From: a virus
DNA length: 50,846 nt
IMG/VR virus record: IMGVR_UViG_3300018063_000007
Coordinates: 1-50,846 of that record
Strand: one strand, 5' to 3'
Position 1 is the first letter of the stretch; every line of letters starts with the position of its first letter. The position numbers and the translations under genes are program-made. This document shows positions 11,838-50,275 of the stretch, in pieces. The notes below the pieces were generated by a model. The model did not search any database and was not told the DNA's origin. It saw only the letters and a program-made list of their open reading frames with translations.

Positions 11838-12115
11838 GCGCAGTCGCGCCCGGCCACACCAATTCCCTCGTTGTCTACCGCTGCGCCGGCTGTGGGAAGG
11901 ACATTGAGCGCCGCCGGGTGAAGGTCAAGAAAACCCGCATCGGCTACGAGCGCACGATGCGCGGGTTCAAGACCATCTACACCTACACCCTCTATCACGG
12001 CTGCAAGGAGAAGCGCTGCGCCCCCGTCATCGCGTGGGATCGGCGCAAACAGAAACCGCGCTACGACAAGCGCTACAACAAAGAGGAGAACGCTCATGAG
12101 TATGCAAGTACCTAG
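11834..12115 (+). CDS. Basic zinc-ribbon protein
   Basis: 93 residues from GTG 11834. YRCAGCGKDIERRRVKVKK is a CxxC knuckle; a second pair may be C and C in HGCKEKRC (~62-67). The C-terminus is basic and Tyr-rich (RYDKRYNKEE). It probably binds nucleic acid, by analogy with zinc-ribbon proteins. Confidence 0.6.
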   Translation: MSAVAPGHTNSLVVYRCAGCGKDIERRRVKVKKTRIGYERTMRGFKTIYTYTLYHGCKEKRCAPVIAWDRRKQKPRYDKRYNKEENAHEYAST

Positions 12116-12425
12116 CGGAATTGTTGCGACGGCAGTGATGATGGCTGTGCTGACCGTACCCGCGTCGGCGGAGTGGGCATACGCACCACCCTTCCCGCTC
12201 GTCTCCGGCACGGTGGTGTGCCCTGCTCGCAACGACTCCGCCATCCCCCTGACGGTATGGATCGAGTGCGTGGAGGCGACGAACGATGGGACGGTAGAGA
12301 GCCCAAAGGTGTGCGTTGACCTCCTCCCCAACACGGCCTGCGCGATCACGAGTACGGACTCGCGGTGTCGGCGGTGCAAGGCGTCGTGGGATGGGGGCGT
12401 GGGGCGCGTGAGCATCGCGGAGTAG
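12096..12425 (+). CDS. Exported Cys-containing protein
   Basis: 109 residues. The N-terminus (SGIVATAVMMAVLTVPASAEW) is a signal peptide with an A-S-A cleavage site. The mature domain, about 85 residues, starts with a beta pattern (PLVSGTVVCPARNDSAIPLT) and has six or more cysteines, suggesting disulfides outside the cytoplasm. It has AGGAG upstream. It is an early, exported phage protein, so envelope modification or superinfection exclusion are possible roles; neither is shown. Confidence 0.6.
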   Translation: MSMQVPSGIVATAVMMAVLTVPASAEWAYAPPFPLVSGTVVCPARNDSAIPLTVWIECVEATNDGTVESPKVCVDLLPNTACAITSTDSRCRRCKASWDGGVGRVSIAE

Positions 12426-26149: not shown

Positions 26150-26401
26150 CTACCTCTTTGTAATACTTGACGCAAGCTTCCCCTCGATCTGACCGAGGGA
26201 GCGGTTGATCTCCCCAAGTTGTGCTATCATCTTGTCCTGCCCGTCTGCCATACGCTCGATACGAAGGAGGAGTTCGAGGGAGCGCTGCTCAACCGTGGCG
26301 ATACGGGCCTCGTTTTGAAGGGTGACGCGGCAGGTAGCGCCCCCGAGCGCGAGGGCGACGACGACGGCGGAGTTGATGAGGATTTGAGTCCAGGTGTTCA
26401 T
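26150..26401 (-). CDS. Membrane-anchored coiled-coil protein, possible inner spanin
   Basis: 83 residues from ATG 26401 (ATGA overlap). An N-terminal span (ILINSAVVVALALGGATC) is followed by a coiled coil (IATVEQRSLELLLRIERMAD...). One membrane anchor plus periplasmic coiled coil is the inner-spanin layout; a typical outer spanin is not nested in it. An XhlA-like protein would have the opposite order. It lies within the lysis cluster. Confidence 0.45.
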   Translation of the reverse strand: MNTWTQILINSAVVVALALGGATCRVTLQNEARIATVEQRSLELLLRIERMADGQDKMIAQLGEINRSLGQIEGKLASSITKR

Positions 26402-26826
26402 GGTATGAGTGTGAGCAAGGAACAATCTTCAGCAAGGAGCGTTCCACCCCCTTCGTCGTATTCGGATACTTGAATGCAGACAGCGTGCGAGCCAAGTTGG
26501 GAGCCCTGGTCAGTTACGACGATTGCACCAAAACGCTCTTTCTCTCCGGGGCCGAGCATGAATGTTTGATAAGGAAACGTCGTTCCATTTAACCATATGT
26601 CGGAATCGTTGGGAGCAACATTAGCAGCGACGAAGAAGGTACGTGTGAAGTTACAGCTAGGAGCGTCGTGGTTGATAAGGCGTACTTCAAATGGTACTTG
26701 CTCCCCAATCGCGGCAACCTCGGTGCCAGGAGTGATAGCGAGACCGGGGGTGCGCTCAACGCAGGCACGGGCCTGGGCAGTAGTAGTAAGGACGGCGAGC
26801 ACAAGGATTGTGACGAATGGTTTCAT
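26398..26826 (-). CDS. Exported Ig-like domain protein
   Basis: 142 residues with AGGAGG before ATG. Signal peptide MKPFVTILVLAVLTTTAQA, then a beta-sandwich domain with the NHDAPSCNFTRTFF signature (N.D...C...F) shared with the domain fused in 9118-9915 (NRDQAGCPAHTF). Such domains occur in secreted bacterial proteins. It follows the two giant exported proteins in the late block and may work with them at the cell surface. The role is not known. Confidence 0.65.
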   Translation of the reverse strand: MKPFVTILVLAVLTTTAQARACVERTPGLAITPGTEVAAIGEQVPFEVRLINHDAPSCNFTRTFFVAANVAPNDSDIWLNGTTFPYQTFMLGPGEKERFGAIVVTDQGSQLGSHAVCIQVSEYDEGGGTLLAEDCSLLTLIP

Positions 26827-26842
26827 GTGAACCTCCTACTGT

Positions 26843-29275
26843 TCATGGTTTACCCTCCATTGTGACAGTAATGCGGCCCGCAGCTGCTAGCGTTCCGCTC
26901 AGATCATACTTCAGACTCATGCACGCACCCGCAGGGACACTGACAGCAACGTCGGACCAACAGGCAGACTTTGCGGTAACGGTCACGAGGGTTGAGGTTG
27001 TACTGGTGCTGGAGGCATACGCTGCCACGCAGTCCTGCCCTACGGTCGGAGCCGCCGTCGAGTACGAAAGTGTAATCGTTGCTGTGATCCCACTGTCCAT
27101 CGCCGTGTCGAACGCTGTGCAGCCCGAGAGTTTGCCGATTGCGCTCCCGGTGACCCAACTGCTTGCGTTGTCGGTAAGGTCAGGGGTTACCGCCGTACCC
27201 ATGAAGAAGTCGGTAGTGAAATTGCCGCTCTCGCCGTACCACACCATGCCCCCGGCGGTGAAGGGGGAGCCAGTATCTGTGCTGCACGCAAGCCCCATGT
27301 TCTGCCCACCGGAATTTGCTGGGCTGCTTATCGCGTCCATCTGGAGTTGGAAGCATCTCCCGGCGGGGATTGCCGCTGCGGTTTGGGCGAACGTACAGTT
27401 ATTGATCGCGCTGGTTACCGTGCAACTAGCGAGCGTCGAGTAGCTCAGATCTGTGCAGTCTTGGCTGCTCGTAAGGGCCGCCGTAGACCCCAACAGATTG
27501 TAGACCCAGCTTGCTGCCCCACCTGGCACAGCGTCTACAATGAGCATCCCTTTGCATGTTTGGATGCTTGTAGGCGAAATCCAGAAGGTTTGGTCCGTGG
27601 CTGTCGCCGCATTGTGCGGACCAAAGAACCGATCTGCCGTGAGGCCAGTTGGTTGGGCCCCGTTGAACGTCATTTCCCCGTCTGTGGGAGAGGATGTAGT
27701 TATGCAGTCTATAGAGTAGTTAAGGTCCCCAGGAGACATTGGGGTAGTAACTGGAGTAAACCGCAAAGTCATACAGGTATTCGCGGCGGCATTGCCGGTA
27801 AGCGTTGCAGTGCCAGTGAGGTGGCGGTTCGTTAGGGCTATCGACCCGACGTTTGCTACCTCCATTGAGGCGAGGTTCCCAACACAATCTGTTGTTGTCC
27901 CAAACGCCGTATTCTCGTAGAGAAGGTCGACAGTCCAACTACCAGTAGTTGGGGCGCTAAGCAGCGCTATATCTACAACACAGGAGGATAGCGTTTCGGT
28001 TGTGACTACGTACGCAGCTTCCGTAGAGCCGCCTGCGATACAGCCGTCGAGATTATTCCCCTGTCCACAATGAAACGTGGCCGTGCTCCCACTTCCGTAG
28101 TTGCTCGCAAAGTTTGCTCCACCGTCTGGTGTCGAGGTTGCGGTGGGGGTAGGCGTGGTAGTGGGGGTCGCGGTAGCAGTGCGGGTAGCTGTGAGAGTGG
28201 GTGTGGGAGTTGGAGTGCGCGTCGCGGTGGGGGTGGGAGTTTGCGTAGGTGTTGCTGTTAACGTCGGGGTCGGGGTCGGCGTAGTAGTTGGGGTTGCCGT
28301 TGGTGTTGTCGCGCAGAAGATGTCGCCTTCGGCATCTGTAAGGAGAGCGGAGGAGCAGTTAGGCTTTTGTATGAGGCGTACTTGGGGAATAGTGCCGGTA
28401 CCACCGTCTGAATGAAGTAACAAAGCCCCAAGTGGCGTACCACCCGCACCGGACACGCCAACATTAAATTGTATCCTTCCTGGAAGATCAGTGCCGCTTG
28501 GTGCCGCATCAGCAAAAGTCTCAATCGTTATGCCGAGACTTTCAAATAAACCGTTTTTCCCTAAGAACGCGATTGCTCCTAAGCTATCATTAACCGCAAC
28601 TGATGTTGGGCTCGCGCTTGTTCCTCTAGCCCGGAAGAAATGTATTTGCCCGTTTGTAACCCCAAACGCAGACAGTTTATGTATTAAGCTTGTACCCTCC
28701 GACTGGAGCCTAAGTTCAGCATTACCTCCGCTTGTGTCTACGACCCCCAACACATTCGTAGCCTTATTATATGTTAACACCCCCGTATCCGTCCCAAGCA
28801 CCCCTCCATCGTTGAAGATTACGTCCTGGTCGGCGGGTGGGACGCAGATGAGGCACGGGGCGCTGCTCGGCCCTGTCGCCGTGGGGGTAGGCGTTGGCGT
28901 GAGCGTGGGAGTAGGCGACACAGTTACCGTGGGCGTGGGAGTTACCGTGGCCGTGGGAGTCGGGAGCGCAGCGACACACGGCGTGCAGATAAGGTCCCCC
29001 GTCGCCTCAATCCCCACCGCGCACGTCCCTGGGGCGCAGTCGGTAGGGTCGAAACAGAGTTCGTTCGCGCACTGGTGCTGGTGGCAGAGCGGGGCGTCTG
29101 CCGCCCCACCTATGCATAATCCCCACTTGAATATGTTGCCGTCGTCAATAGGGCACTCGCCGAGTTGTGGAGGGTCGTCAGGAGCGAAAATCTCATGGGG
29201 GATGATAGACTCTTGAGCAAACGCCCGCCCAGCGGCAGCGAACAGCAACAAAAGTATCAGTACGAGCTTGGTCAT
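26843..29275 (-). CDS. Exported modular protein with fibre-like domain and three Cys-rich repeat domains
   Basis: 810 residues. Signal peptide 1-20 ([17 protein letters not shown]); Cys-rich segment 40-100 with 10 cysteines; Thr-Pro linker 104-135; a beta-rich domain 146-305 of the type seen in phage tail fibres (TYNKATN..., [25 protein letters not shown]); linker 323-384; then three related beta domains (385-533, 534-683, 684-810) with motifs such as SW.V.LLYE/LGSTA, DC and C...L. The same domain occurs six times in the gene before it. A signal peptide on a fibre-like phage protein is unusual. It could be a host-surface protein or a virion appendage. Confidence 0.7.
28124..28309 (-). repeat. 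Thr-Pro linker repeat (second linker of 810-residue protein)
   Basis: In-frame low-complexity DNA coding for about 62 residues of TPT/TAT/TRT units between the fibre-like domain and the repeat triplet. Read on the other strand it gives spurious Val-Gly frames. Confidence 0.9.
28871..28966 (-). repeat. Thr-Pro linker repeat (first linker of 810-residue protein)
   Basis: Codes for about 32 residues of TPTPT/TVTVSPT type between the Cys-rich segment and the fibre-like domain. Confidence 0.9.
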
Positions 29276-32200
29276 GGCGTACTCGTCGGTGATGGAGTCG
29301 GCGTCGCAGTGCGAGTGCGGCTAGGGCATGGGCCACCAAGACACGGCGAAGGCATCGGGCACGTGGGGGTGGGTGTTGCCGTCCTCGTGGCCTGTGGTGT
29401 TGGCGTCGGTGAGGTCGACGGTGTTGGCGAACGGCTGGGCGTAGGAGTCCGTGAGGGCGTTGGGGTACGCGAGGGAGTTGGCGTGCGGGTGCGCGTAGGC
29501 GTGGGCGTGCGTGTGGGGGTTGGGGTAGCGCCGCCAGTGCAAGAAAGTAGCTCAAATGCCTCAGTGTCGGGAGGCGCCGCACCTGCCTCACCTCGCAACG
29601 TCGCGGTGAGTCCTGCGTTGCCTGTTGGGTATGTTACACAAGAAGTAGCCACCCCTGGTTGTGCAGTCACGGTGCCACAACCAGCTTCCCAAATCGCCAC
29701 ACAAGCTGGTTCAACTCCAGTGTCTTCGGGGGACGACGGGGTAGTAATGGCTGGGCCGGTGATGTCAATGAAGTTTACGTCAGTCCCGTTAGCAACTGGG
29801 TTGCTGTTGATGTCAGAGACGATTGCAGAAATAATCATCATGCATTGACCTGCTGTAAGCACAGTGCAGGCAGGCGGTTGGACAAGCACAATCTGATTTG
29901 GTGGCAAAGGAGTTGCTGTGGCCGTTGGGGTGGGTGTCAGCGTAACCACCGGTGTGGGCGTGGCCCCTCCAGCGTCGCACTCTAGCGTCCACGTCTCACC
30001 GCCTGTGCCTATGGCCGTCCCGCTCTCCACTGCTTGTAGCTGTAGGCAGCCCTTAGCCAAAAAGGGGATACTCGCACCAGTGAAGCTGCAATTACGGTCA
30101 TTGTCAGCAATGGTGCAGAGAGTGGCAGTCGAGGTCATTGTGGCATTGATGCAATGCTGGGCAGCGGTGAGCGCAGGGGAGTAATTTGCCCGGATCGCCC
30201 ACGAGTTACCCACGCCAGGCGGATTCACTACGTTCACGACCCCAGAGCACGAACTTGGCCTAACATTGTAGCCGTTAGGCACAATCCAGCGTGTGAGTTG
30301 TGAGTCGATAGTTGTGGCCTCGCGGGCCATTAAGAATGACGAAGTGCGGTTCGTTGTGGACACACCTTGCCAAACAGGCCCCCCGGCGACGTAAGGTGCA
30401 ATGGGATCGCCTGTACAGTCTACACTCCATGACCAACCGCCACCTGTGCTGTCAGGTGGGAGGCAAGAGTGTGGCCCGTCAATGCAGGTGCAGTTAGCGT
30501 TAACAGTGCAAGTACTACCAGCAGAACAGCCATCGTGGCACCGGGAGACTTGCGATAATCGTAACCGCATACAGCTATTCGTGGCTATGTCAAATGATTG
30601 GTCGACTGTAAATGCACAGTGTTCTTCTGCCCCAGAGATAGAACATTTCGTGATTGGCGTGTACGTGAGATCTGTACAGCGTTGAGTGCTTGTGAGCGGG
30701 GCCGTTGAGCCTTCAAGAACTACGTCCCAGTTACCTTTTATTGGGTTTGACGCTGTAGGGGGGCTCGTGAGATACACACCGCCTGCGCAACCTTCAATGT
30801 CAGTTGTAGTAATCCACTGAGAAAGCAATGTTGGTGGGTTGGTACCTGATATATGCCCCATTACGAAATTGGCTTGGCCAGATGTATTACCAGCATTGCC
30901 AGGGTCGTTATACGATGAGAAGCCATCGGCGCGCTCGTCTTCGCAGTAGACTGAGGCGTTGATTGAGCCAGGAGTAGTGGTGTTGCCGACACTGGGCGTT
31001 AGCTTATACTGCAAGCACGAGTCCACTGCCACACCAGGGGCAGCGAACGTGTGGGACCACGAGCAGTTCTTGTTTGGTGGTATGATGATACACGCTACGC
31101 CTGTCGAGAGGTACGTAGCTTCGTCGCAGCTTTCGTTAACCCCTAGAGCAATGTCGCTGTATAGCAACTCAATTGCAAAATTCCCTGTGGGCGACGTTTC
31201 CACGGCGACTGTGCCGCTGCACTTCTTGAGATTCTGTTGGGTCTTCCACCATGGCGCTGGCTCAGAAAGACTACGATCAGCGCTTGCGGCTCGACCAATG
31301 AAGCAAGGCGCGGTTGTAGAAGTGCATTGCAATGTGTTGCTACTACCGTTGCTAAAGAACATCGGCCCACCGTCGATTGGCGTTGGGGCGGCTGTTGGCG
31401 TCGCTGTAGCTGTGGGTGTGGCTGTGCTCGTCGGGGTGGGCGTAGGGCTTTCTGATGGTGTTGGAGTAACTGTTGGTGTAGGTGTGGCAGTCAGCGTAGG
31501 GGTAGCAGTTACAGTCTGCGTTGCAGTCACCGTAGGTGTGACTGTGATGGTTGGCGTCGGCGTGGCCGCAGAAACTTCCTCGCACGTCACTGCCCACGTC
31601 TCCGCGCCCGACCCTTGAACACCAACCTCCGTCACACGTAGGCGCAGGCACCCACCCGCAGGGACGTTGAGCGTAGCGTCCGTGAAGCTACATGAGTTGG
31701 TATTTGTCGTTGCATCGATGGCGCATACAGTCCCCGTACTAGTCCAGTCAGTGCTGAGTATTGGGCAGTCGTCAGCGTTGGCGACAGCGGTGTCTGTGCC
31801 TTCGAGTTCGATAGTCCACCCGTTCGTCCCGCCGCCCCCTGCGGAGGTGTTCATCGCGACGTGGCCAGAGCAGGACGTGAGCCCGGTTGACGTAACCCAC
31901 TGCCCATTCGCGTTACCCGCTCCTGCGATCCGCTCGCCGCTTCCGAGGAAGTGGCTGGTCGTGCCGCTAGAGCCGTCGCCGCCGTAGAACACCGGGGGGC
32001 CACTCTCGAACGTTGCAGCGTTGTCAAGGGAGCATGAGACAACGACGTGGTGGCCGGCTGTGTTGACTGCGGTCAGCACCTCATCGAAGAACACCCGGAA
32101 GCAACTCCCCTTGGGGATGTTGATGGCGGAATCGATGGCCTTGGTGCAGTTGTTGTCGGTGGCGGTGAGGGTGCAGAGGGCAGTCGTAGTTGTGAAGGCC

Positions 32201-32967
32201 AGGTCGACGCAACTCTGCGTCGTAGCGAGCGTGGTATCCGAAATCTGGAGGCCAACGTTCCACGTCCCTGAGCCTCCCGAGGGCGTATCCACCACGATCC
32301 ACGCGCTACACGCGGAGTAGTCCTCCGTGGCAATCCAGTGGTTCGCGTCGGAGCTGCTCGCCACGGCGTTCGACTCAGGGCCGATGAACGTGTCCCCCTG
32401 GATGCCCGTGTCGGTGTCGAAGTTAAAGGTGGTCAGGCCGTCGCTGTTGGCGTCTTCACAGTCGATGGTCTGACCCACGAGGGTGGCCGCTGCGGGAACC
32501 CCTGTTGCGGTGAGCCGGTACTGGAAGCACGTCTTGGCCGCAATCCCGATCCCCCCGTTGATGCTGGTGAGGTCCTTCGTCCAGTCACAAGAGTTGTCGG
32601 TGTCGGAGATGGTACAGAGCGTCCCAGTGGTCTCCATTGAGGCGACGTTCGAGGCGCAGTCGGCAGTGACCCCGAGGGCGGTTTCCTCATATAGCAACTC
32701 GACCGCCCACGACGTTCCCGCGCCTGGAGCGGTCCTGAGCGTCACCATCCCCGTGCATGTCTTGAGCGCTTGGTCCGTTACCCAAAACGTCCCGTCGTTG
32801 GTTTGAGTCGTGCTTGGAGTGGACGCGCCGCCGCCGAAGTAGGTCGCCGTCCCGATGGTATTCCAATACTGGTTAGCGAAATGCGGCCCGCCGTCCTTGA
32901 CTGCCCCCGCAACAGCAGGGAGTAGTAGCAATAGGACTAAGAAGCCAAGTCTAACGACGACGCCCAA
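29272..32967 (-). CDS. Giant exported protein with six Cys-rich repeat domains and Thr-Pro linkers
   Basis: 1231 residues from TTG 32967, with GGGAGAGGAA upstream; a start at 33012 would place 15 charged residues before the signal peptide. Signal 1-22 ([16 protein letters not shown]); domains 24-177, 178-330, 331-467; linker 468-530; domains 531-682, 683-870, 871-1001; linker 1002-1020; an Ig/Big1-like domain 1021-1143; Thr-Pro tail to the end. Recurrent signatures are C.G.V, LLYE/LLYS, DC, NCS and C.Q..LT. The fifth domain has an extra Cys-rich insertion ([19 protein letters not shown]). Three domains per block suggest a designed triplet. Likely extracellular; function unknown. Confidence 0.7.
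29275..29535 (-). repeat. Thr-Pro/Arg tail repeat
   Basis: C-terminal 87 residues of the giant protein, units such as RTPTPS repeated, interrupted by a [12 protein letters not shown] cluster. The tail ends exactly where the next gene begins (ATGA). Confidence 0.9.
29908..29964 (-). repeat. Short Thr-Pro linker
   Basis: Codes for [19 protein letters not shown] between the second triplet and the Ig-like domain. Confidence 0.85.
31378..31566 (-). repeat. Thr-Pro linker between repeat triplets
   Basis: Codes for about 63 residues of TPT/TAT/TVT units between domains 3 and 4 of the giant protein. The domain after it starts IDGGPMFF, matching DGGPHF and DGGANF at the start of the other two triplets. 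Confidence 0.9.
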
Positions 32968-34992: not shown

Positions 34993-35582
34993 TATGACAC
35001 GTTCACGAAGCTAATGTCGACATCGGGGGCTGGGATAGGCCCTGCAACAGTCACTACGACAAACATGCTGGAGACTATTGTAACGATAAAGGAGTCTGTA
35101 GTTACGTCGCCACCCCTGAAGAACGGGAGAGGAATGCCATCTGGCGCTAGCAGGTCTGTTTGAGGAGTGCCGAACACGCCGACTGTATCGTTTGAGAGAA
35201 CGAAGATGCCTTTCTTGTGGATAGCTCCCGAAAAGAAAAATGCAAATCTGTACTGTGGTCCACAGCAACCTCCTGAGCGGCTCCTAAGCAGAATACTTAC
35301 TATGCTATTCTCAGGCGCGTTTGTGACAGCTACCGTCATCTGGCCATTGATATTGCCAACACTAGAGGTGAGGCTTACGTTAGGGTCGCCATTAAGGAAT
35401 TCTTGGTGTGCTTGGAGCACCTCATGGGACTCAAAACTAAGATTATCGAGGAATGCTTGATAGAACCCAGCATCTTCGAAGGCAAATGCCTTCTTGGTAA
35501 CTGTAAAAGTCACGCCATTATCGTCTGCGGTTGGTGGCACGCGTTTAGGGTTGAACGCTGGTCCTGGTTCACACAGCGGCAT
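34992..35582 (-). CDS. Late hypothetical protein, beta-rich
   Basis: 196 residues. A helical segment in the middle (FYQAFLDNLSFESHEVLQAHQ) is followed by many beta strands (MTVAVTNAPENSIVSILLRS, SFIVTIVSSMFVVVTVAG) and CC in SRSGGCCGPQ. Part of the coupled run 34306-36529 with TAATG junctions, so probably made together with virion proteins. Confidence 0.5.
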   Translation of the reverse strand: MPLCEPGPAFNPKRVPPTADDNGVTFTVTKKAFAFEDAGFYQAFLDNLSFESHEVLQAHQEFLNGDPNVSLTSSVGNINGQMTVAVTNAPENSIVSILLRSRSGGCCGPQYRFAFFFSGAIHKKGIFVLSNDTVGVFGTPQTDLLAPDGIPLPFFRGGDVTTDSFIVTIVSSMFVVVTVAGPIPAPDVDISFVNVS

Positions 35583-36529
35583 TAGGCTTCAACCTTATCG
35601 GGGTCACAAGCAGGCTCCCCAGTGATTGGGTCAATGTAAGTTTCTTGGGGTTGCTCTGGCAAGCATGGGGGTGACGTGGTGCCTACGCCACAAGGATTGA
35701 TGTCGGCGCCTGGATCATCACATGGTGGGTGGTCACATTCATCGTCGTCGGAGCAATCAAGCTCAACTGTCTCTATAAGTTCGTGCCAGTGCGCAAGTTG
35801 CTCTGGGGTTAGCGTAGCCTCGAACGCGGCGACTGCGGCTTCGTCGCACAGGTCGATAGGAGGCGGGCCAGGAAACTCGACGACAGGCGGTAGGGGATCT
35901 GGCTCAGGGTTAATAGGGTCGGTGAAGCAAGGGACGCCGTTCTCATCTACACCTTCAGGGTGTACGAGGCAGGCGGGCGGGTCGAGGCAGTTGTCGGGGT
36001 CAACCTCACACGGATCTTGGGGGGTCACGTCGGGATTGCACTCACCGAACAGGTGGATGGCGATGAAGCGGTTGACTGGAGTACCAACGGCGCCTGGGTC
36101 CATAGTGATCCAGACAGCGCCTACATCTCGAAGGTCCGTAGTGAGAAACAGGTCGAAGACCTTGCGCTCGCCGCTCCGCACTCCCGTGAACAGGCTGTTA
36201 AGCGCAAAACGCCTGCGCCGCGCCCACTCTAAGGTCGCTGTGCTGCGAGTCCACAGTTCTAGGAATGGGACATCAAGGGCCGCGTAGCTTGGGCGTAGCT
36301 TCACGAGCGCGCCAGAGAAGAATGCTGGGAAGCGTAGGAATGTGAGGAGGGCGCCTTCACGCTCCAATTCGCCGGTTTGCTCGAAGTCCTGGTCCATCAA
36401 GCCAACTTGTGCGGCGGTACCCCACGACGCGGCGGTGGCGGCCGGGTTATCTACATCATAGTCAACAGTTTGCTGAAGGGTGTAGTTGTCTCCTGAATCG
36501 AGGCCGACTCGGCGGATGCGCCTACTCAT
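35582..36529 (-). CDS. Late structural protein with Asp/Pro/Cys-rich tail
   Basis: 315 residues. Residues 1-~165 are a beta-rich folded domain (ALLTFLRFPAFFSGALVKLR, RKVFDLFLTTDLRDVGAVW). From ~165 on, the chain is acidic with many Pro and Cys, resembling a disordered or metal-binding extension. It follows the hub-like protein and the small gene 36529-36726, so it may belong to the tail tip. Confidence 0.5.
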   Translation of the reverse strand: MSRRIRRVGLDSGDNYTLQQTVDYDVDNPAATAASWGTAAQVGLMDQDFEQTGELEREGALLTFLRFPAFFSGALVKLRPSYAALDVPFLELWTRSTATLEWARRRRFALNSLFTGVRSGERKVFDLFLTTDLRDVGAVWITMDPGAVGTPVNRFIAIHLFGECNPDVTPQDPCEVDPDNCLDPPACLVHPEGVDENGVPCFTDPINPEPDPLPPVVEFPGPPPIDLCDEAAVAAFEATLTPEQLAHWHELIETVELDCSDDDECDHPPCDDPGADINPCGVGTTSPPCLPEQPQETYIDPITGEPACDPDKVEA

Positions 36530-36726
36530 TAAACGTCTCGGAGGCCCCGTTGTGCTCGCTCAGCTGGTGTAAGGTGAAGAAGCTCCTCAGCGTCCTTGCC
36601 TTTGCGAGGCTTACGTTTTAGTAAGTCCTCAATGTCCCGAATAGCATCTAACTCCTGCTGACGTTTCTTACTGGCGCCAAAATCCTCAAAGGCTAACCTT
36701 TGTTTAACTTTAGATTTGTCACTCAT
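36529..36726 (-). CDS. Small charged late protein
   Basis: 65 residues from ATG 36726, with GGAG upstream and an 8-base overlap with the hub gene. It has a helical, charged sequence (SKVKQRLAFEDFGASKKRQQ) and LLKRKPRKGKDAEELL. It slightly resembles the small protein at 25408. The function is unknown. Confidence 0.55.
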   Translation of the reverse strand: MSDKSKVKQRLAFEDFGASKKRQQELDAIRDIEDLLKRKPRKGKDAEELLHLTPAERAQRGLRDV

Positions 36727-38107
36727 TACCGAGATTCTCCACTTCTCGCCGTTTGCGCGTCGCACCGAAGCCCCACCACATGAATACACGGCGTTTACGG
36801 TCGAAGGCTGCTGAACTGCCGAGCGAGAAGTCCAGCGCAGCGTAGAGTTGGTCAATCGCGCCGCTCAGCCGCACAGCGTGGATGCCCCCAGTGCCGCTCT
36901 CATACCGCTCGATGCGGTATACGCCATCGCGGGAGGCGAACATGATTGCGTTCTCGACCGCTATCACTGATCCAGGAGCGAAGCACCCAATACCGATACG
37001 GTGGCCACCACCAGCAGCCAGCACGGGCACAGGCTTGTACTCCTCGAACACCTCGCCAGCAATGGCCCACGTCCCAACTTCCTTGAATGCGACGAGCCAC
37101 TCGTGCATGGAGCTAAGGGCAGCGAGCCTGTCACCGTCCCCATGAGCCACGGGGATTTCGTTATCATCGGGCCAGCCCTCAGGCACCATGTAGTCGGGGT
37201 GTTGGTTAGAAAAGCGCACGAGTGAGAGGTCGTCGATCATCACAGCGGCGAGTTGGCCTCGATGCTCTGCGAGCGCTGAGAACGGGTGAGGAGGCGGTGT
37301 GTTGACTAGCTCCTCGGCGGGCGTGCGTCCTTCGAGCACAGCATCCGACGTAGTATCGGTGATGTCATTGCCAATGTCAGCAGTCCCAATGAATCGGTAA
37401 CTACCACGCGAGGCATTCGTGCGATAGAGGGACCATTTGGTGACCTGGGGGTCGTTGTAGTTTGCTGGATCGGTAGGTGAGGAGAACGTGTTCGTCTGAC
37501 ACGTTGTATTGGTGACGGTGAGTGGATTCTCGTTAAGGTCACTTTCGTGCCACGGAGAGCTGAGCGTCCACTTGTAATCGCGCTTGCCAGCCTCGATACA
37601 GTTGGGGGCGACGCCAGCGGCTATGACGGGCGCGCCTGGCGGCATGAGCATCGTCTTAATGCCCACGCGCGTCAGCGCTTGGGTTACACCATCGTACTTG
37701 AGGTTGGGGTTTAGCCCGTCGTAGATGAAGGTGAGGTTTTGCCCGCCTGAGATAGAAAGGAAGTTGACCTTAAGCGGCGTCGCCCGAGTTTGCTCGTCAT
37801 CAGGCATGCTAGTGAGCAAAAGCTCCACTGGATCGGCACCAGGCAAGAGTCGATAGAGTTTCTCACCAGCAGCAACAATGAGTTCACGGGTACCATCCTC
37901 ATAGACATGCCATCCGTGGCCGCGAATAGGATCGGGGAAGGGTATAGCGTGGATGGGGCGTAGGCCGGGGCGGCCCGCGAGAATGCCCCCAGGGACGTAG
38001 ACGTTTAGTGCCTCTCTTAGATAGCCGGCTTGATGTTTACGGGGGTGCTCGCGGGCGAGAATGCCACGAAAGTAGGTGTCCTGAGTTTGAGCGGCGCGAG
38101 TAGCCAC
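36719..38107 (-). CDS. Tail hub / packaged-DNA stabilisation protein (P22 gp10-like)
   Basis: 462 residues from GTG 38107 with GGGAGC upstream. The N-terminus (YLREALNVYVPGGILAGRPGL) and repeated beta motifs (VYEDGTRELIVAAGEKLYRL, ENAIMFASRDGVYRIERYE) are typical of beta-propeller hub proteins that close the neck of short-tailed phages. Its length is near the 472 residues of P22 gp10. Its place after the adaptor-like gene agrees. Confidence 0.6.
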   Translation of the reverse strand: MATRAAQTQDTYFRGILAREHPRKHQAGYLREALNVYVPGGILAGRPGLRPIHAIPFPDPIRGHGWHVYEDGTRELIVAAGEKLYRLLPGADPVELLLTSMPDDEQTRATPLKVNFLSISGGQNLTFIYDGLNPNLKYDGVTQALTRVGIKTMLMPPGAPVIAAGVAPNCIEAGKRDYKWTLSSPWHESDLNENPLTVTNTTCQTNTFSSPTDPANYNDPQVTKWSLYRTNASRGSYRFIGTADIGNDITDTTSDAVLEGRTPAEELVNTPPPHPFSALAEHRGQLAAVMIDDLSLVRFSNQHPDYMVPEGWPDDNEIPVAHGDGDRLAALSSMHEWLVAFKEVGTWAIAGEVFEEYKPVPVLAAGGGHRIGIGCFAPGSVIAVENAIMFASRDGVYRIERYESGTGGIHAVRLSGAIDQLYAALDFSLGSSAAFDRKRRVFMWWGFGATRKRREVENLGNE

Positions 38108-41232: not shown

Positions 41233-42531
41233 TTACCTTACGTGCACAACCACTTTGTTGGTCGAAATCCCGGAGAGCTTCGCGCTCGCGTGCGAGTTCT
41301 GATTAGCGAAGTTGCCTGCCCACTCGAACACCGCCTCGTAGGCGTCCTGGCCCATGATCGGGCGCAGCACGTCTCCACCCTTGTCGACCCACTGGCCGGG
41401 GGTGTTCTCGTACCGCTTGAACCAGCGCTTGTCGACGAAGTACATGATGTCGTAGTCGCAGTCGCGGTCCACCTTAACGGGGTACCCGCTGAACTCCACG
41501 TCCTTCGTAAGAGCCTGGCCCTTGAAGCCGCCGTCGTGGTCGTTGGCCCCACCGCTAGAGATGTACATACGGTTTGCGGAGAGGATCGCTTGATAGGCTC
41601 GACGAACGGAGTGTTCGCACCAGTATTCGCGGATCATCGAGTTACCAAGCTGGGAGGCCACGTCGAGGGCTTGCTGCATGACATCGGTGTTGAGCGCACC
41701 CACGGAGCCAATCACAGTCGAGCGGCAGATGTCTTGCTCGGTGCGGTTGATGCCGTGGTAGTTGTTGACGAACTCACCATCGTCGATGTGTCCACGCATG
41801 CCCATCGGGTCGAGGTTGAAGTGTGCATCGGCAACCTCGGTGATGTTCATGGTCGGGGCAAGGACGATGATCGCGTTGTCGGGGGCCTGAACTGCTGAGA
41901 GGGGGCTGTTGACGGTCACGCGATTGCCGTCGTTCGTACCGGCGAAGCCAACTTCGGTCACCCGACGCACAGCGAGGACGGCCGAGCCGTCGGCGCTAAG
42001 GATGGCGATTTTCTGGCCTCGGTTGAGGAAACGGGCGCCGTTCACAGCGCCGGGGACGCCACCAGGAGCATCGACGATCAACTCAGTGGTGTCGGTGGCT
42101 GCGCCATTCTTAAGGGCTTGGATGCCCCGACCATCGGCCCACATGATCTGATTCATGAGGTCGGTGAAGTCGGTACGGGCACCCTCGCTCTCAAGCGAGA
42201 AGGTCTGCTTGTACGCGCCCTTGTTGGTCTTGGAGACCTTCATGGACACGCCAGACAGGAAGATGCGCGAGTAACCGAACCGGCAAGGGATACGCATGTT
42301 GATGCCGGTCTGGGGCTGCGGCTCAGGGAGCGGGCCGAGTTCGCGAACGAAGCCGGCGCCGTAGTTACGCCCGGAGTGGAGCGCAACGGTGATGTAGTCC
42401 TTGCCTTCCCAGGTCATGCTTGGAACTTTCTGGAACATGTTCCACGCAGCAACCTCGGTCGGCAAAAGTTCGATGTACGTCGGTTCGTAGACGTACTTGA
42501 GAAGGTAACTAGCAGTCGTGGTATCAGCCAT
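41233..42531 (-). CDS. Major capsid protein
   Basis: 432 residues with AGAGGA before ATG. Features expected of a coat protein: next to a scaffold-like gene, Gly/Ala-rich, soluble, with a conserved N-terminal region (TYIELLPTEVAAWNMFQKVP) and a long central helix-beta part (SESEGARTDFTDLMNQIMWA-like stretch near residue 112). It probably adopts the HK97 fold seen in P22-like coats. Position and size make this call firm; the exact family needs a profile search. Confidence 0.8.
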   Translation of the reverse strand: MADTTTASYLLKYVYEPTYIELLPTEVAAWNMFQKVPSMTWEGKDYITVALHSGRNYGAGFVRELGPLPEPQPQTGINMRIPCRFGYSRIFLSGVSMKVSKTNKGAYKQTFSLESEGARTDFTDLMNQIMWADGRGIQALKNGAATDTTELIVDAPGGVPGAVNGARFLNRGQKIAILSADGSAVLAVRRVTEVGFAGTNDGNRVTVNSPLSAVQAPDNAIIVLAPTMNITEVADAHFNLDPMGMRGHIDDGEFVNNYHGINRTEQDICRSTVIGSVGALNTDVMQQALDVASQLGNSMIREYWCEHSVRRAYQAILSANRMYISSGGANDHDGGFKGQALTKDVEFSGYPVKVDRDCDYDIMYFVDKRWFKRYENTPGQWVDKGGDVLRPIMGQDAYEAVFEWAGNFANQNSHASAKLSGISTNKVVVHVR

Positions 42532-43548: not shown

Positions 43549-43575
43549 GTTATACTAGATCAAACACTGTGTCAA
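43549..43575 (-). promoter_or_regulatory. Candidate promoter for scaffold/coat operon
   Basis: On the minus strand TTGACA (43570-43575) and TATAAC (43549-43554) with a 15-base spacer. The -35 is perfect and the -10 matches five of six, though the spacer is short. A GGCGC-TCA-GCGCC hairpin (43519-43531) follows in the leader. It would boost expression of scaffold and coat. Confidence 0.5.
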
Positions 43576-43967
43576 GTGACCAACAACCTCCGTACCTTCA
43601 CGTTGTCGGTGACGCTAGGATTCGTGATACGCAGGCGCGTGATGAGAAGGCCGGTCGATGGGTTGGCACCACTGAGAAAGCACGGGAAACCTTCACGCAG
43701 CCCAGTGCTGAAAGTGGTGAGACCATCAAAAATCTCAAGTGTGACCTCACCATCTAGGGCAATGATGCCGGCCCAGGTAAACGCGGTGAGTGGGCCAGCA
43801 GTGTTCACCCAAATGACAGTGTTGGTCGCCGCTGCAACAATGTCGTAAAGCTGGTCATCCTTCTTCGTGAGGCTGTCGATAGAAGGGGGGGTCGTTCCCT
43901 GAGTGAAAACGGCCTCCTCACCCCCTATGAAGATTCGAAAGTCAAACCTGCCTACGAGTGTTGCCAC
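43572..43967 (-). CDS. Late protein in frame with upstream exported gene
   Basis: 131 residues from GTG 43967, directly after the TAA of the preceding gene and in the same frame. There is no purine-rich ribosome-binding site, only the Thr-Pro coding tail of the upstream gene. The chain is beta-rich (FDFRIFIGGEEAVFTQG, LITRLRITN) and resembles small virion proteins. It may be made by coupling or by stop read-through as part of a 232-residue exported fusion. Confidence 0.55.
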   Translation of the reverse strand: MATLVGRFDFRIFIGGEEAVFTQGTTPPSIDSLTKKDDQLYDIVAAATNTVIWVNTAGPLTAFTWAGIIALDGEVTLEIFDGLTTFSTGLREGFPCFLSGANPSTGLLITRLRITNPSVTDNVKVRRLLVT

Positions 43968-44270
43968 TTACGGCGTTGAAGTTGCCGTTGGTGTTGGGGT
44001 AGCTGTGGCAGTGGCGGTCGGGGTCGCGGTCGCGGTACTCGTAGCGAACGAACACGCTCCACAGCCCGAAATCACTCGACGGCTACCGTTCTGGCACGAG
44101 TAGATGCAACAATCACCCTTCGCGCCGTAAAGGCCAACGTCAGCAGCACCACACGTAGGCTGCACCGAGGGGCGTGGGAGCCCCATGATGAACGGGCCGT
44201 CCGCGCGTACAGGCACGACTGCGCACACCGCCAGCGTAATGAGGAACACAATAGCGAGAAATGCTTTCAT
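43968..44270 (-). CDS. Exported Cys-rich protein with Thr-Pro tail
   Basis: 100 residues with AGGAGG before ATG. Signal peptide 1-23 (FLAIVFLITLAVCAVVPVRA), a Cys-rich core 40-73 (nine cysteines, e.g. GDCCIYSCQNG), then TATATPT repeats 75-100 up to the stop. The tail is the same style as in the giant proteins at 26843 and 29272. A linker ending in a stop is odd, and the next codons are open in the same frame (see 43572). Confidence 0.65.
   Translation of the reverse strand: MKAFLAIVFLITLAVCAVVPVRADGPFIMGLPRPSVQPTCGAADVGLYGAKGDCCIYSCQNGSRRVISGCGACSFATSTATATPTATATATPTPTATSTP
43971..44048 (-). repeat. Thr-Pro/Ala tail repeat
   Basis: Low-complexity coding DNA for the last 26 residues ([15 protein letters not shown] units) of the exported protein. 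Confidence 0.85.
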
Positions 44271-47755: not shown

Positions 47756-48138
47756 TAAGCGTAATCTCCTCTAGCTTCCACGTCATCTTTGAAGCGGCAC
47801 TCGGGATCATCGTACGGAACGGGCGCTAGCGGATCACGGGCGAGCGACTTCGTAAGCGCAACCTTACTTTCGAGCGAGCGATGCTGCGCACGTTCATAGG
47901 CTTGCGAGATACCCGTGCGACCGTAGACTTCGAGGAGACGGTCAGTCGCGATGTCAGCGCGTTCAGTTGCTTCCACGTGCCGCCGATTAAGCTCAATGAA
48001 GTCTTCATGTGCTCGTTCGAGGGCGAACTCCAAGCGTTCGATAACTCGCTCAAAGATTCGGCGTTCTGCGGCGATGAATTCCTTTGCGTCAGCGACACCA
48101 GCTTCGTAGCCATCTGCAAATCTCCTAAAGAGCTTCAT
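47755..48138 (-). CDS. Coiled-coil late protein between terminase and portal
   Basis: 127 residues, nearly all helix with heptad patterns (IFERVIERLEFALERAHEDF). It overlaps the terminase gene by four bases and the portal gene by one. It may help terminase-portal docking; this is only positional inference. Confidence 0.6.
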   Translation of the reverse strand: MKLFRRFADGYEAGVADAKEFIAAERRIFERVIERLEFALERAHEDFIELNRRHVEATERADIATDRLLEVYGRTGISQAYERAQHRSLESKVALTKSLARDPLAPVPYDDPECRFKDDVEARGDYA

Positions 48139-49985
48139 GCATACCTCGCGTTACCGTCAGCTTGCGTATCGCCTCGAAACCACGAACTATCGCTGTAGTC
48201 GCCTGAGTCCTCCACGATTCGCGAATTGCGAATCTCCCACACTGCACGGGAGCCGGGGTCGACTTTCATTAAATCGCGTTCGATCTGCGTCGTCGCGGTC
48301 AACTCACGTGGGAGTGTCTTACCTGGGGGGAAGGCTTTCTTCACAGCAGCGGAGAGCGCGTCGCTCAAGTCGTCGAACTCGGGGTTAGGGAAGTCAAGAA
48401 GTTCACCTTCGAGGTCTGCAATCCCTTGGTTAACGATGTCGCTACCTTCAAGGTGAAAGATCATGCCGTTGGCGTAGCGAGATTGAAGGGAGCTGATGCG
48501 GTCAGGCTTGCTAATCGGGGAGCCGTCCCAGTCTAGGAGCAGAAATGGCGTACGCCCGCGCTTGAACTCTGTCCTAAAGATGTGGACGTAGAGGATTTGC
48601 ATACCACGTTGCTCAATGAACACGGCCTTGGGTGCCCACTGGTCGACGAGAGTGAAAGTCTCTTTAACGAACGTATCGACGCCCCAACGACGGCGAATCG
48701 AACGGAGCACGTACCAATTGTTGTCTGGCCCCACGGCCAAAACGATGATGCCGAAGAAGTCACCCTCACGGCCCTCCTTGCGATGTTGGTTGGGGTCGAG
48801 GCGCTTGCCAGGCTCACGCGCTGAGGTGGGGTCGACGAACACGAAGATGTTGCACAGCGCGAGGCGAATCTTCCTGCCTTCGCGGCCCTCATGGTCGAGT
48901 TCGATGAGGTGGTCACCCTCGCGCCGGCACTGACGAAACAAACTCTCGCTGAAGCCTAGCTTGTCAGCGTCGCGTGGGTTGTTACAATACCAACATGAGA
49001 ACAGAAACGGGTTTGCCTTCTTCAACTTCAACGCAATGTCGACGTTGCATTGGCTGAAAATCATGTGCTCGCGCGAGTAGTCCTCAGTAGCCTTACCATC
49101 TTTCTCACACCACGAGCGTAGCGCGACCATCGTGCTTGGTGACGCCCGCTCGATCCGCGAGTACGGGTCGAAGAAGGCCCACCGCGTGCCGCAGATCCTT
49201 CGCTCGCTCGTGTTGAGGTTGGCGAACATGGGCGTCAGGTTGTCGTACGCAGCGCACACCTTGTCCATCTGGGCACGGGGCAGCTCATCTCCCACTATGT
49301 CGTCGACAAGCTGGAGTGTGAAATGCCCTCCTACGAGGGTGCTCCCGACACCGGACGCTCGAATCGAGGGGTCGGTGTATACCCCATGACGTTTGATGGT
49401 CAGCGCTGTGGCGCTCCACTTATCCTGCTCGCCCTTACCGGGCACGATCTCGCCAAAGCACGCCAAGAACAATTGCCCTCTAGGCCCTAACCCCTGCATG
49501 AGCAGCCGAATGGGCGTCAGCATGCCCTCAGCCATCGACACGTTGTGCGTGTAGATGAGGATGCGTTCCTCAGGGTCGCGCACCAAGCGCCAGGCACAAT
49601 AGGCTTGGGTGAGCATAGTCGTCTTCAGATGCCCTCGGGGTACGATCGCCATGCGTTCGCGGCCTAGCACCTGCCCGCTCTTGGTCTTCCACCCATTGGG
49701 CGCGGACCAGGCCCACGCGAGGTCGCTGTGAAATGGCACTTCGAGCAACGAACCGCTCGCGTCAGCGTTGAACGCACAGATGAACTTGGCGAAGAAGAAG
49801 AAGTCGCGCAGCCCACGCTGACGATGATACTCGGTGAAGTCGGCGTCGTTGAACATCGCTGTGCGCGGGCGACCTTCGGCCTCCCAATGCTCGAAACGCC
49901 TGTGCAAAGGTTCGAGTTCGGCGGTGAGCCAATGCTCAATGGGCGCGGCGTCGGGGATTACGAGGTCGGTGAGTCGACGGGCCAT
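48135..49985 (-). CDS. terL: Terminase large subunit
   Basis: 616 residues from ATG 49985 (TGATG overlap). ATPase: Walker A-like PRGHLKTT (116-123, K121), Walker B TLQLVDD (D228, D229). RNase H-like nuclease: FVFVDPTSA (D385), VFIEQ (E458) and FDDLSDALSAA (D539, D542). The order and spacing fit a complete large terminase that pumps and cuts DNA during packaging. Which packaging subgroup it belongs to needs a phylogeny. Confidence 0.9.
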   Translation of the reverse strand: MARRLTDLVIPDAAPIEHWLTAELEPLHRRFEHWEAEGRPRTAMFNDADFTEYHRQRGLRDFFFFAKFICAFNADASGSLLEVPFHSDLAWAWSAPNGWKTKSGQVLGRERMAIVPRGHLKTTMLTQAYCAWRLVRDPEERILIYTHNVSMAEGMLTPIRLLMQGLGPRGQLFLACFGEIVPGKGEQDKWSATALTIKRHGVYTDPSIRASGVGSTLVGGHFTLQLVDDIVGDELPRAQMDKVCAAYDNLTPMFANLNTSERRICGTRWAFFDPYSRIERASPSTMVALRSWCEKDGKATEDYSREHMIFSQCNVDIALKLKKANPFLFSCWYCNNPRDADKLGFSESLFRQCRREGDHLIELDHEGREGRKIRLALCNIFVFVDPTSAREPGKRLDPNQHRKEGREGDFFGIIVLAVGPDNNWYVLRSIRRRWGVDTFVKETFTLVDQWAPKAVFIEQRGMQILYVHIFRTEFKRGRTPFLLLDWDGSPISKPDRISSLQSRYANGMIFHLEGSDIVNQGIADLEGELLDFPNPEFDDLSDALSAAVKKAFPPGKTLPRELTATTQIERDLMKVDPGSRAVWEIRNSRIVEDSGDYSDSSWFRGDTQADGNARYA

Positions 49986-50275
49986 CAGCCAATACACCAA
50001 CGACAATACAGTGCATGCGTCGCCGGCCAGCCCAGTTGCTTCAACTCAACCAACCGTGCTTGGCCGTTGTAGCTGGCCGAATGGCGCTCAGTACCACCTA
50101 GCAACTTCAAGCCAGCCTCCGCGTTCCCACACCCAGCGCACTTCCCACCATATGCTGCTAGCATCTCTGCCCTGAGCTTAGCCCGGTAGTTGCGTCCCAC
50201 GAGGCGCTGCCGGTCCACGGTCATGGTTCCGGCAGCGAGTCGGCGGGCTCGTGGGGAAGCTACACCCGATCTCAC
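49985..50275 (-). CDS. HNH-like zinc protein, probably inactive
   Basis: 96 residues from GTG 50275 (ATG 50224 is also possible; neither has a good site). YGGKCAGCG...GWPATHALYCRWC follows the zinc knuckles of the small phage HNH family, but the usual ID-H catalytic segment is replaced by LKLLGGTERH. The zinc scaffold without the catalytic His suggests loss of nuclease activity. HNH enzymes often accompany terminase genes and aid packaging. Confidence 0.6.
   Translation of the reverse strand: MRSGVASPRARRLAAGTMTVDRQRLVGRNYRAKLRAEMLAAYGGKCAGCGNAEAGLKLLGGTERHSASYNGQARLVELKQLGWPATHALYCRWCIG

Follow-up and report, generated by a model that had tools for sequence, protein, structure and literature searches.

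Candidate exported, cysteine-rich tail appendages built from triplets of related domains in a podovirus-like phage

The window, i.e., the whole stretch of 50,846 bases analysed here (IMG/VR record IMGVR_UViG_3300018063_000007), reads as a complete podovirus-like genome in IMG/VR and has a 123-bp direct terminal repeat. Features of the window lie on the minus strand unless marked otherwise. A single minus-strand run contains the genes for the terminase large subunit (TerL; phrog_38; 48135..50006), a portal-sized ORF that aligns with the portals of relatives, the major capsid protein (MCP; phrog_14242; 41233..42531), which served as the query for relatives, a connector-like protein (phrog_399), and nozzle-type proteins (phrog_511/3287), and it extends onward to a lysozyme and a large late protein of 1172 aa. 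The tail nozzle or stabilisation-type protein (36719..38107), which has no signal peptide, is a landmark of this structural module. Two adjacent genes, here called A and B, lie on the same strand and in the same run as TerL, portal, and MCP, with the nozzle region on one side and the lysis genes on the other, and are encoded inside the structural operon as a fibre protein would be. Also observed in the genome were a 315-aa structural-module protein with 12 Cys and no signal peptide (35582-36529) and, outside the structural module, a protein of 109 aa whose N-terminus is plausible as a signal peptide (12096-12425, plus strand).

Gene A (29272..32967) encodes a predicted exported six-domain protein of 1231 aa from a TTG start at 32967, with the ribosome-binding site GGGAGAGGAA upstream, and gene B (26843..29275) encodes a predicted exported protein of 810 aa. 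The stop of gene A overlaps the start of gene B as ATGA (29275-29272), and the two genes are translationally coupled. An earlier, sequence-only reading had placed two minus-strand ORFs of 1231 and 810 codons here and estimated that ~12% of the genome is spent on them; both are present, and the share computes to 12.0%. In protein A, a signal peptide called by rule (32902..32967) is followed by triplet I, comprising domains A1-A3 (31576..32895), a Thr-Pro linker (31375..31575), triplet II, comprising domains A4-A6 (29971..31374), of which A5 bears a six-Cys insertion, a Cys-containing region at aa 1024-1146 (29530..29898), and a Thr-Pro-rich C-terminal tail (29275..29529). By eye, the region at aa 1024-1146 is like a bacterial Ig-like (Big) domain, and a Pfam search gave no match for it. 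Protein B consists, in order, of a signal peptide (29216..29275; likewise a rule-based call), a Cys-rich N-terminal module with 9 Cys in 80 aa (28976..29215), a Thr-Pro linker, a tail-fibre-like domain at aa 141-321 (28313..28855), a further Thr-Pro linker (28127..28312), and a single triplet, B1-B3 (26846..28126). The structural module holds two more signal-peptide proteins, one of 142 aa with 4 Cys directly after B (26398..26826), and one of 100 aa with 7 Cys and a Thr-Pro tail between portal and scaffold (43968..44270). These two genes, the N-terminal module and fibre domain of B, and the Cys-containing region of A had all been overlooked in the sequence-only reading. The gene at 43968-44270 ends in TAA, and a GTG-start ORF of 131 aa that has no ribosome-binding site adjoins it in-frame (43572-44270), an arrangement that, from the sequence, might represent reinitiation, readthrough of the stop codon, or an exported gene that has been split.

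The nine domains are 142-173 aa long, at aa 25-172, 173-320, 321-464, 532-680, 681-853, and 854-999 in A and at aa 384-525, 526-667, and 668-810 in B. Their relatedness, and the 3 + 3 layout in A with 3 in B, had been proposed from the letters and held up on computation, with 33/36 domain pairs scoring above the 99th percentile obtained with shuffled sequences. The collinear arrangement, in which A1 is matched with A4 and B1, A2 with A5 and B2, and A3 with A6 and B3, ranks first of 36 arrangements by similarity, which indicates that the three domains were duplicated together; the duplicated unit is the triplet, as had been suggested. Each triplet begins with the described motif (DGGPHF, DGGPMF, or DGGANF) behind a signal peptide or Thr-Pro linker.

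The domains are rich in Cys, which make up 4.3% of A and 3.6% of B vs. 0-1.8% of the recognised capsid, portal, terminase, and nozzle proteins. The counts for A1-A6 and B1-B3 are 6, 6, 6, 8, 12, 6, 6, 6, and 4, all of them even, for which random parity would give a probability of about 0.002, and six core Cys columns recur among the domains, with two Cys gained in A4 and six in A5. B1 has lost both Cys of columns 116/127, which lie on two neighbouring hairpin strands in the predicted model, and has gained a different Cys pair. Because the Cys are even in number, conserved, and jointly lost, we predict that the triplet domains probably hold disulfides, the three core ones most likely joining the first to the last strand, the invariant pair 80-123 (A1 numbering), and the hairpin pair 94-103 (A1). 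Even counts and joint pair loss are what the sequence of a Sec-exported protein with disulfide-capable Cys would present; paired Cys are coherent in an exported protein and odd in a cytoplasmic virion protein. Within A5 (30409-30927), a 36-residue insertion holds six Cys and has the look of a small disulfide-type knot.

An AlphaFold2 model of one domain, based on the nine-sequence alignment, is all-beta (pLDDT 76.8, pTM 0.74). Its matches by Foldseek and VIA-align are jelly-roll sandwiches with Z of 6.6-8.1 and sequence identity < 16%, led by the microvirus spike G (Z 8.1) and including Ena pili (Z 7.0), icosahedral coat proteins, TNF-family ligands, BclA-type heads, and collagen-binding and CBM6-type modules. 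BFVD adds collagen-like fibre heads (KNV1: TM 0.56, rmsd 2.9). As judged from the model, TNF/C1q, the BclA heads, the disulfide-linked Ena spore pili, the microvirus spike G, and CBM6 share a sandwich of similar size. Z values of 7-8 are common among unrelated sandwiches, and we therefore limit our claim to a jelly-roll-like beta-sandwich as the predicted fold of a single domain, the fold match being moderate. Sandwiches of this type are used in viral fibre heads and in carbohydrate-binding modules. The model of a whole triplet (pLDDT 55, pTM 0.33) is of too low quality to judge trimeric or pseudo-trimeric packing.

Relatives of the triplet were not found in INPHARED (tblastn, E up to 10), among plasmids, or in a profile search over 52 phage records. 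The same was true of viral contigs searched with A and the triplet alignment as queries, a search that depends on short conserved peptides and may overlook distant kin, and of one genome for each of 84,980 species searched with two patterns, where distant kin are again missable. A single triplet domain had no match in Pfam, PHROG, or PDB sequences. The triplet is thus far a sequence orphan and a putative new adhesin module. By contrast with A, which matches no tail-fibre family, B matches the tail-fibre family phrog_9942 at aa 208-291 (E 9.8e-8) and, by tblastn, tail fibre/endosialidase proteins of Synechococcus phages with 38-47% identity over 60-90 aa; a peptide-pattern search of IMG/VR gave no homologues of this fibre domain. 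The match to the phrog_9942 and Synechococcus fibres does not take in the other parts of B, i.e., its Cys-rich N-terminus, Thr-Pro linkers, and triplet, and these fibres are not known to carry signal peptides. The view that the pair is of a kind not recognised from phages finds no support in that form, given the phrog_9942 domain of B and the place of the pair in the tail end of the operon. For the suggested blocking of other phages, or a defence role more generally, PADLOC returned no family match, an absence that proves little.

Signal peptides were called with a hand-written rule (not SignalP) combined with a filter against downstream transmembrane segments. By this rule, the N-termini of A and B are strong, textbook Sec signal peptides, with an n-, h-, and c-region, an AxA site, and a chain otherwise free of membrane segments, although the n-region of A is weak, with one Arg. 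The predicted mature N-termini are VKDGG (A) and QESII (B). The same rule and filter applied at internal positions gave 0/706 calls, and the clear signal peptides seen on both proteins in the sequence-only reading stand. Whereas a cytoplasmic fibre would have no signal peptide, both A and B have one. On other phage genes the rule was positive in 27/1622 (about 1.7%); against this background, signal-peptide genes are enriched in the window (4/55, Fisher p 0.017) and in two further phages, ctLwi270 (6/42, p 1e-4) and G022 (8/42, p 1e-6).

The podovirus ctLwi270 was found via its MCP, which is 36% identical to that of the window phage. Six proteins encoded in its structural module begin with a signal peptide, namely the collar fibre (PF07484, 1.7e-23), a tailspike of GH28/pectate-lyase type (phrog_2234), a LamG lectin (PF13385), a repeat protein of 846 aa, and two proteins of 197 and 164 aa, the latter encoded after the MCP. 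Four of the six genes lie between portal and scaffold, the region that corresponds in location to the 100-aa signal-peptide gene of the window. In a collar-motif survey of IMG/VR, a convincing signal peptide was seen on 1 of 108 proteins whose N-terminus could be read; this protein belongs to G022 (IMGVR_UViG_3300042988_000862; L178-L180), an uncultured podovirus of 42.8 kb. An apparent collar match (L161) was set aside as spurious on its sequence. In G022, most of the tail bears signal peptides, which are found on the nozzle (phrog_578), the collar fibre, a protein with the Mtd second domain (PF21916), a LamG fibre of 1090 aa, and four small proteins, whereas the MCP, scaffold, portal-sized, and connector genes are without one. 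The nozzle has its canonical RQLNIFDFSGGLN start, the N-terminus RQLNIFDFSGGLNSK standing directly after the signal, and the locus was assembled again from a second sample. The collar fibres (PF07484) are encoded after the nozzle and carry signal peptides in ctLwi270 and G022; unlike them, A and B have no collar domain. A 394-aa ORF of G022 (L179:9314-10498, minus strand), once counted among the signal-peptide proteins, was dropped as a multi-span membrane protein; it lies between the MCP and the tail genes and by eye is O-antigen ligase/polymerase-like.

Such signals on clear tail proteins are rare. No signal peptide was found among the structural genes checked in Shocker, ctEqG8, ctMEh928, S-SRP01, DB2, and KBS-S-2A, and FNGNID-type fibre N-termini of other phages lack one in 4/4 cases, which indicates that the signal is an addition. 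The repeat protein of ctLwi270 has 13 Cys, 12 of them after the signal, including three CxxGC pairs (CVSGC, CSAGC, and CDSGC), whereas the homologous stretches without a signal peptide have 1 Cys in ctMEh928, 1 in S-SRP01, and 0 in DB2; in the aligned stretch, the exported ctLwi270 version reads LQVECVSGCAGSGGTS vs. ALAITGAGSGGTS in ctMEh928. The gain of signal and Cys pairs together argues that the signals are used. By analogy with these clear tail proteins of ctLwi270 and G022, a signal peptide marks a variant and is compatible with a fibre role for A and B. The sequence-only reading had held that its proposal would fall if the domains belonged to a known tail-fibre family present only in virions without signal cleavage. 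This is a false choice, as fibre-type proteins carry a signal in at least two further phages.

Several other genes were seen in the course of these comparisons. A 589-aa signal-peptide protein of G020 (L049:11043-12812, minus strand) has a pectate-lyase-type/beta-helix region and a weak C-terminal match to Phage_cement_2, and is possibly an exported head decoration. A signal-peptide glycosidase-like protein (GH26-like by eye; L019:812-1891, plus strand) adjoins the portal of a relative. In several portal relatives (L016, L017, L042, and L054), a conserved 118-aa protein has an N-terminal membrane segment, which is probably an anchor rather than a signal peptide.

The usual teaching is that the virions of tailed phages are made in the cytoplasm and set free at lysis. 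The open-licence papers searched contained no description of Sec-exported tail fibres of tailed phages or of assembly outside the cytoplasm. That receptor-binding proteins lack signal peptides has been used as a sign that they are phage-borne (PMC6199706). Tailed phages are known to use Sec for some proteins (PMC7143992), and SAR or Sec-exported endolysins share the use of Sec with A and B but serve in lysis and are not appendages of the virion. A signal peptide is combined with a binding domain, as in A and B, in DGR targets displayed on bacterial surfaces and in adhesins that bacteria secrete, but these are cellular. T4 extract complementation, as recounted in PMC9576892, indicates that fibre-type parts can join particles late and in extracts, so that joining after lysis is physically reasonable.

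We consider it about an even chance (probability roughly 0.5) that A and B are exported, disulfide-bonded tail appendages that would meet the virion outside the cytoplasm and be incorporated there. Much of the earlier interpretation is retained in this reading (modular, exported proteins with a duplicated triplet, and virion decoration after secretion among the listed options), and its claim of unfamiliarity to phages is not. To judge from their position, A and B would be made late from the structural operon; their textbook signal peptides suggest Sec export and trimming by signal peptidase, and the even, conserved, jointly lost Cys suggest that the jelly-roll-like domains would then be oxidised to disulfides. 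These proposed steps of late expression, Sec export, and disulfide formation are well supported. Heads, portal, and nozzle would be built in the cytoplasm, and the finished appendages would bind to them at lysis, outside the cytoplasm, a step suggested by the fibre domain of B and, by analogy, by the signal-bearing tail proteins of other phages. That the triplets, spaced by Thr-Pro linkers, might then bind the surface glycan or receptor of the next host is a guess from their architecture.

The main rival to a virion appendage is a late, secreted adhesin or decoy that stays off the virion and coats the infected cell or its matrix, either masking receptors and so keeping released virions from adhering to debris or aiding aggregates of infected cells. 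Signal peptides and disulfide-type Cys would suit such a protein, as would the N-terminus of A, which has no recognised anchor or virion-attachment motif, the Thr-Pro linkers, which are typical of secreted bacterial proteins, and the several conventional small tail genes that remain. We nevertheless regard this role as less likely, because B has a tail-fibre domain and because in other phages the signal is borne by the very nozzle and collar fibre, proteins that are hardly decoys. The resemblance of the signal peptide, Thr-Pro linkers, and repeated Cys domains to secreted bacterial proteins could also mean that an exported adhesin module was captured from a host and fused to fibre parts, acting on the host surface or in transit with no phage-specific assembly route. 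The GC3 of A and B (0.59-0.62) is indeed below that of MCP and TerL (0.73-0.79), but similar values (0.57-0.65) are seen in further genes of this module, and the two-pattern search of species genomes, subject to the same caveat on distant kin, found no triplet relative; we consider such a capture improbable. It is more doubtful still that the hydrophobic N-termini are uncleaved membrane anchors or virion-membrane contacts, with the proteins staying in the inner membrane and docking virions. Cleavage is a prediction and the n-region of A is weak, but each h-region is followed by an AxA-type site, the proteins have no second membrane segment, and paired Cys require the whole chain to be outside.

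Returning to exported tail appendages, we infer that the case for exported proteins reaching the virion is strongest for G022, as it is hard to see what else a nozzle would serve for. It is weaker for A and B, since A is without a recognised virion-attachment segment and the two could be secreted adhesins. As the triplet has no sequence relative, its putative virion role rests on the fibre domain of B, operon position, and analogy. A and B may be extra, the nozzle and several small tail genes of the window being free of signal peptides. A wider reading, which we put forward tentatively, is that some tailed phages deliberately divide morphogenesis between two compartments. Heads would be made and packaged in the cytoplasm; fibres, tailspikes, and in G022 also the nozzle would be exported by Sec and oxidised, and would join the virion at lysis or otherwise only outside the cytoplasm. 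The window phage would belong here through the export of its largest appendages.

Exported fibre-like appendages would be new, and a categorically new route of morphogenesis would be the stronger reading. If fibre-type proteins are exported, the rule that phage receptor-binding proteins have no signal peptide (PMC6199706) would fail, annotation pipelines would wrongly assign such genes to the host secretome, and disulfide chemistry would become accessible to phages for their adhesins.
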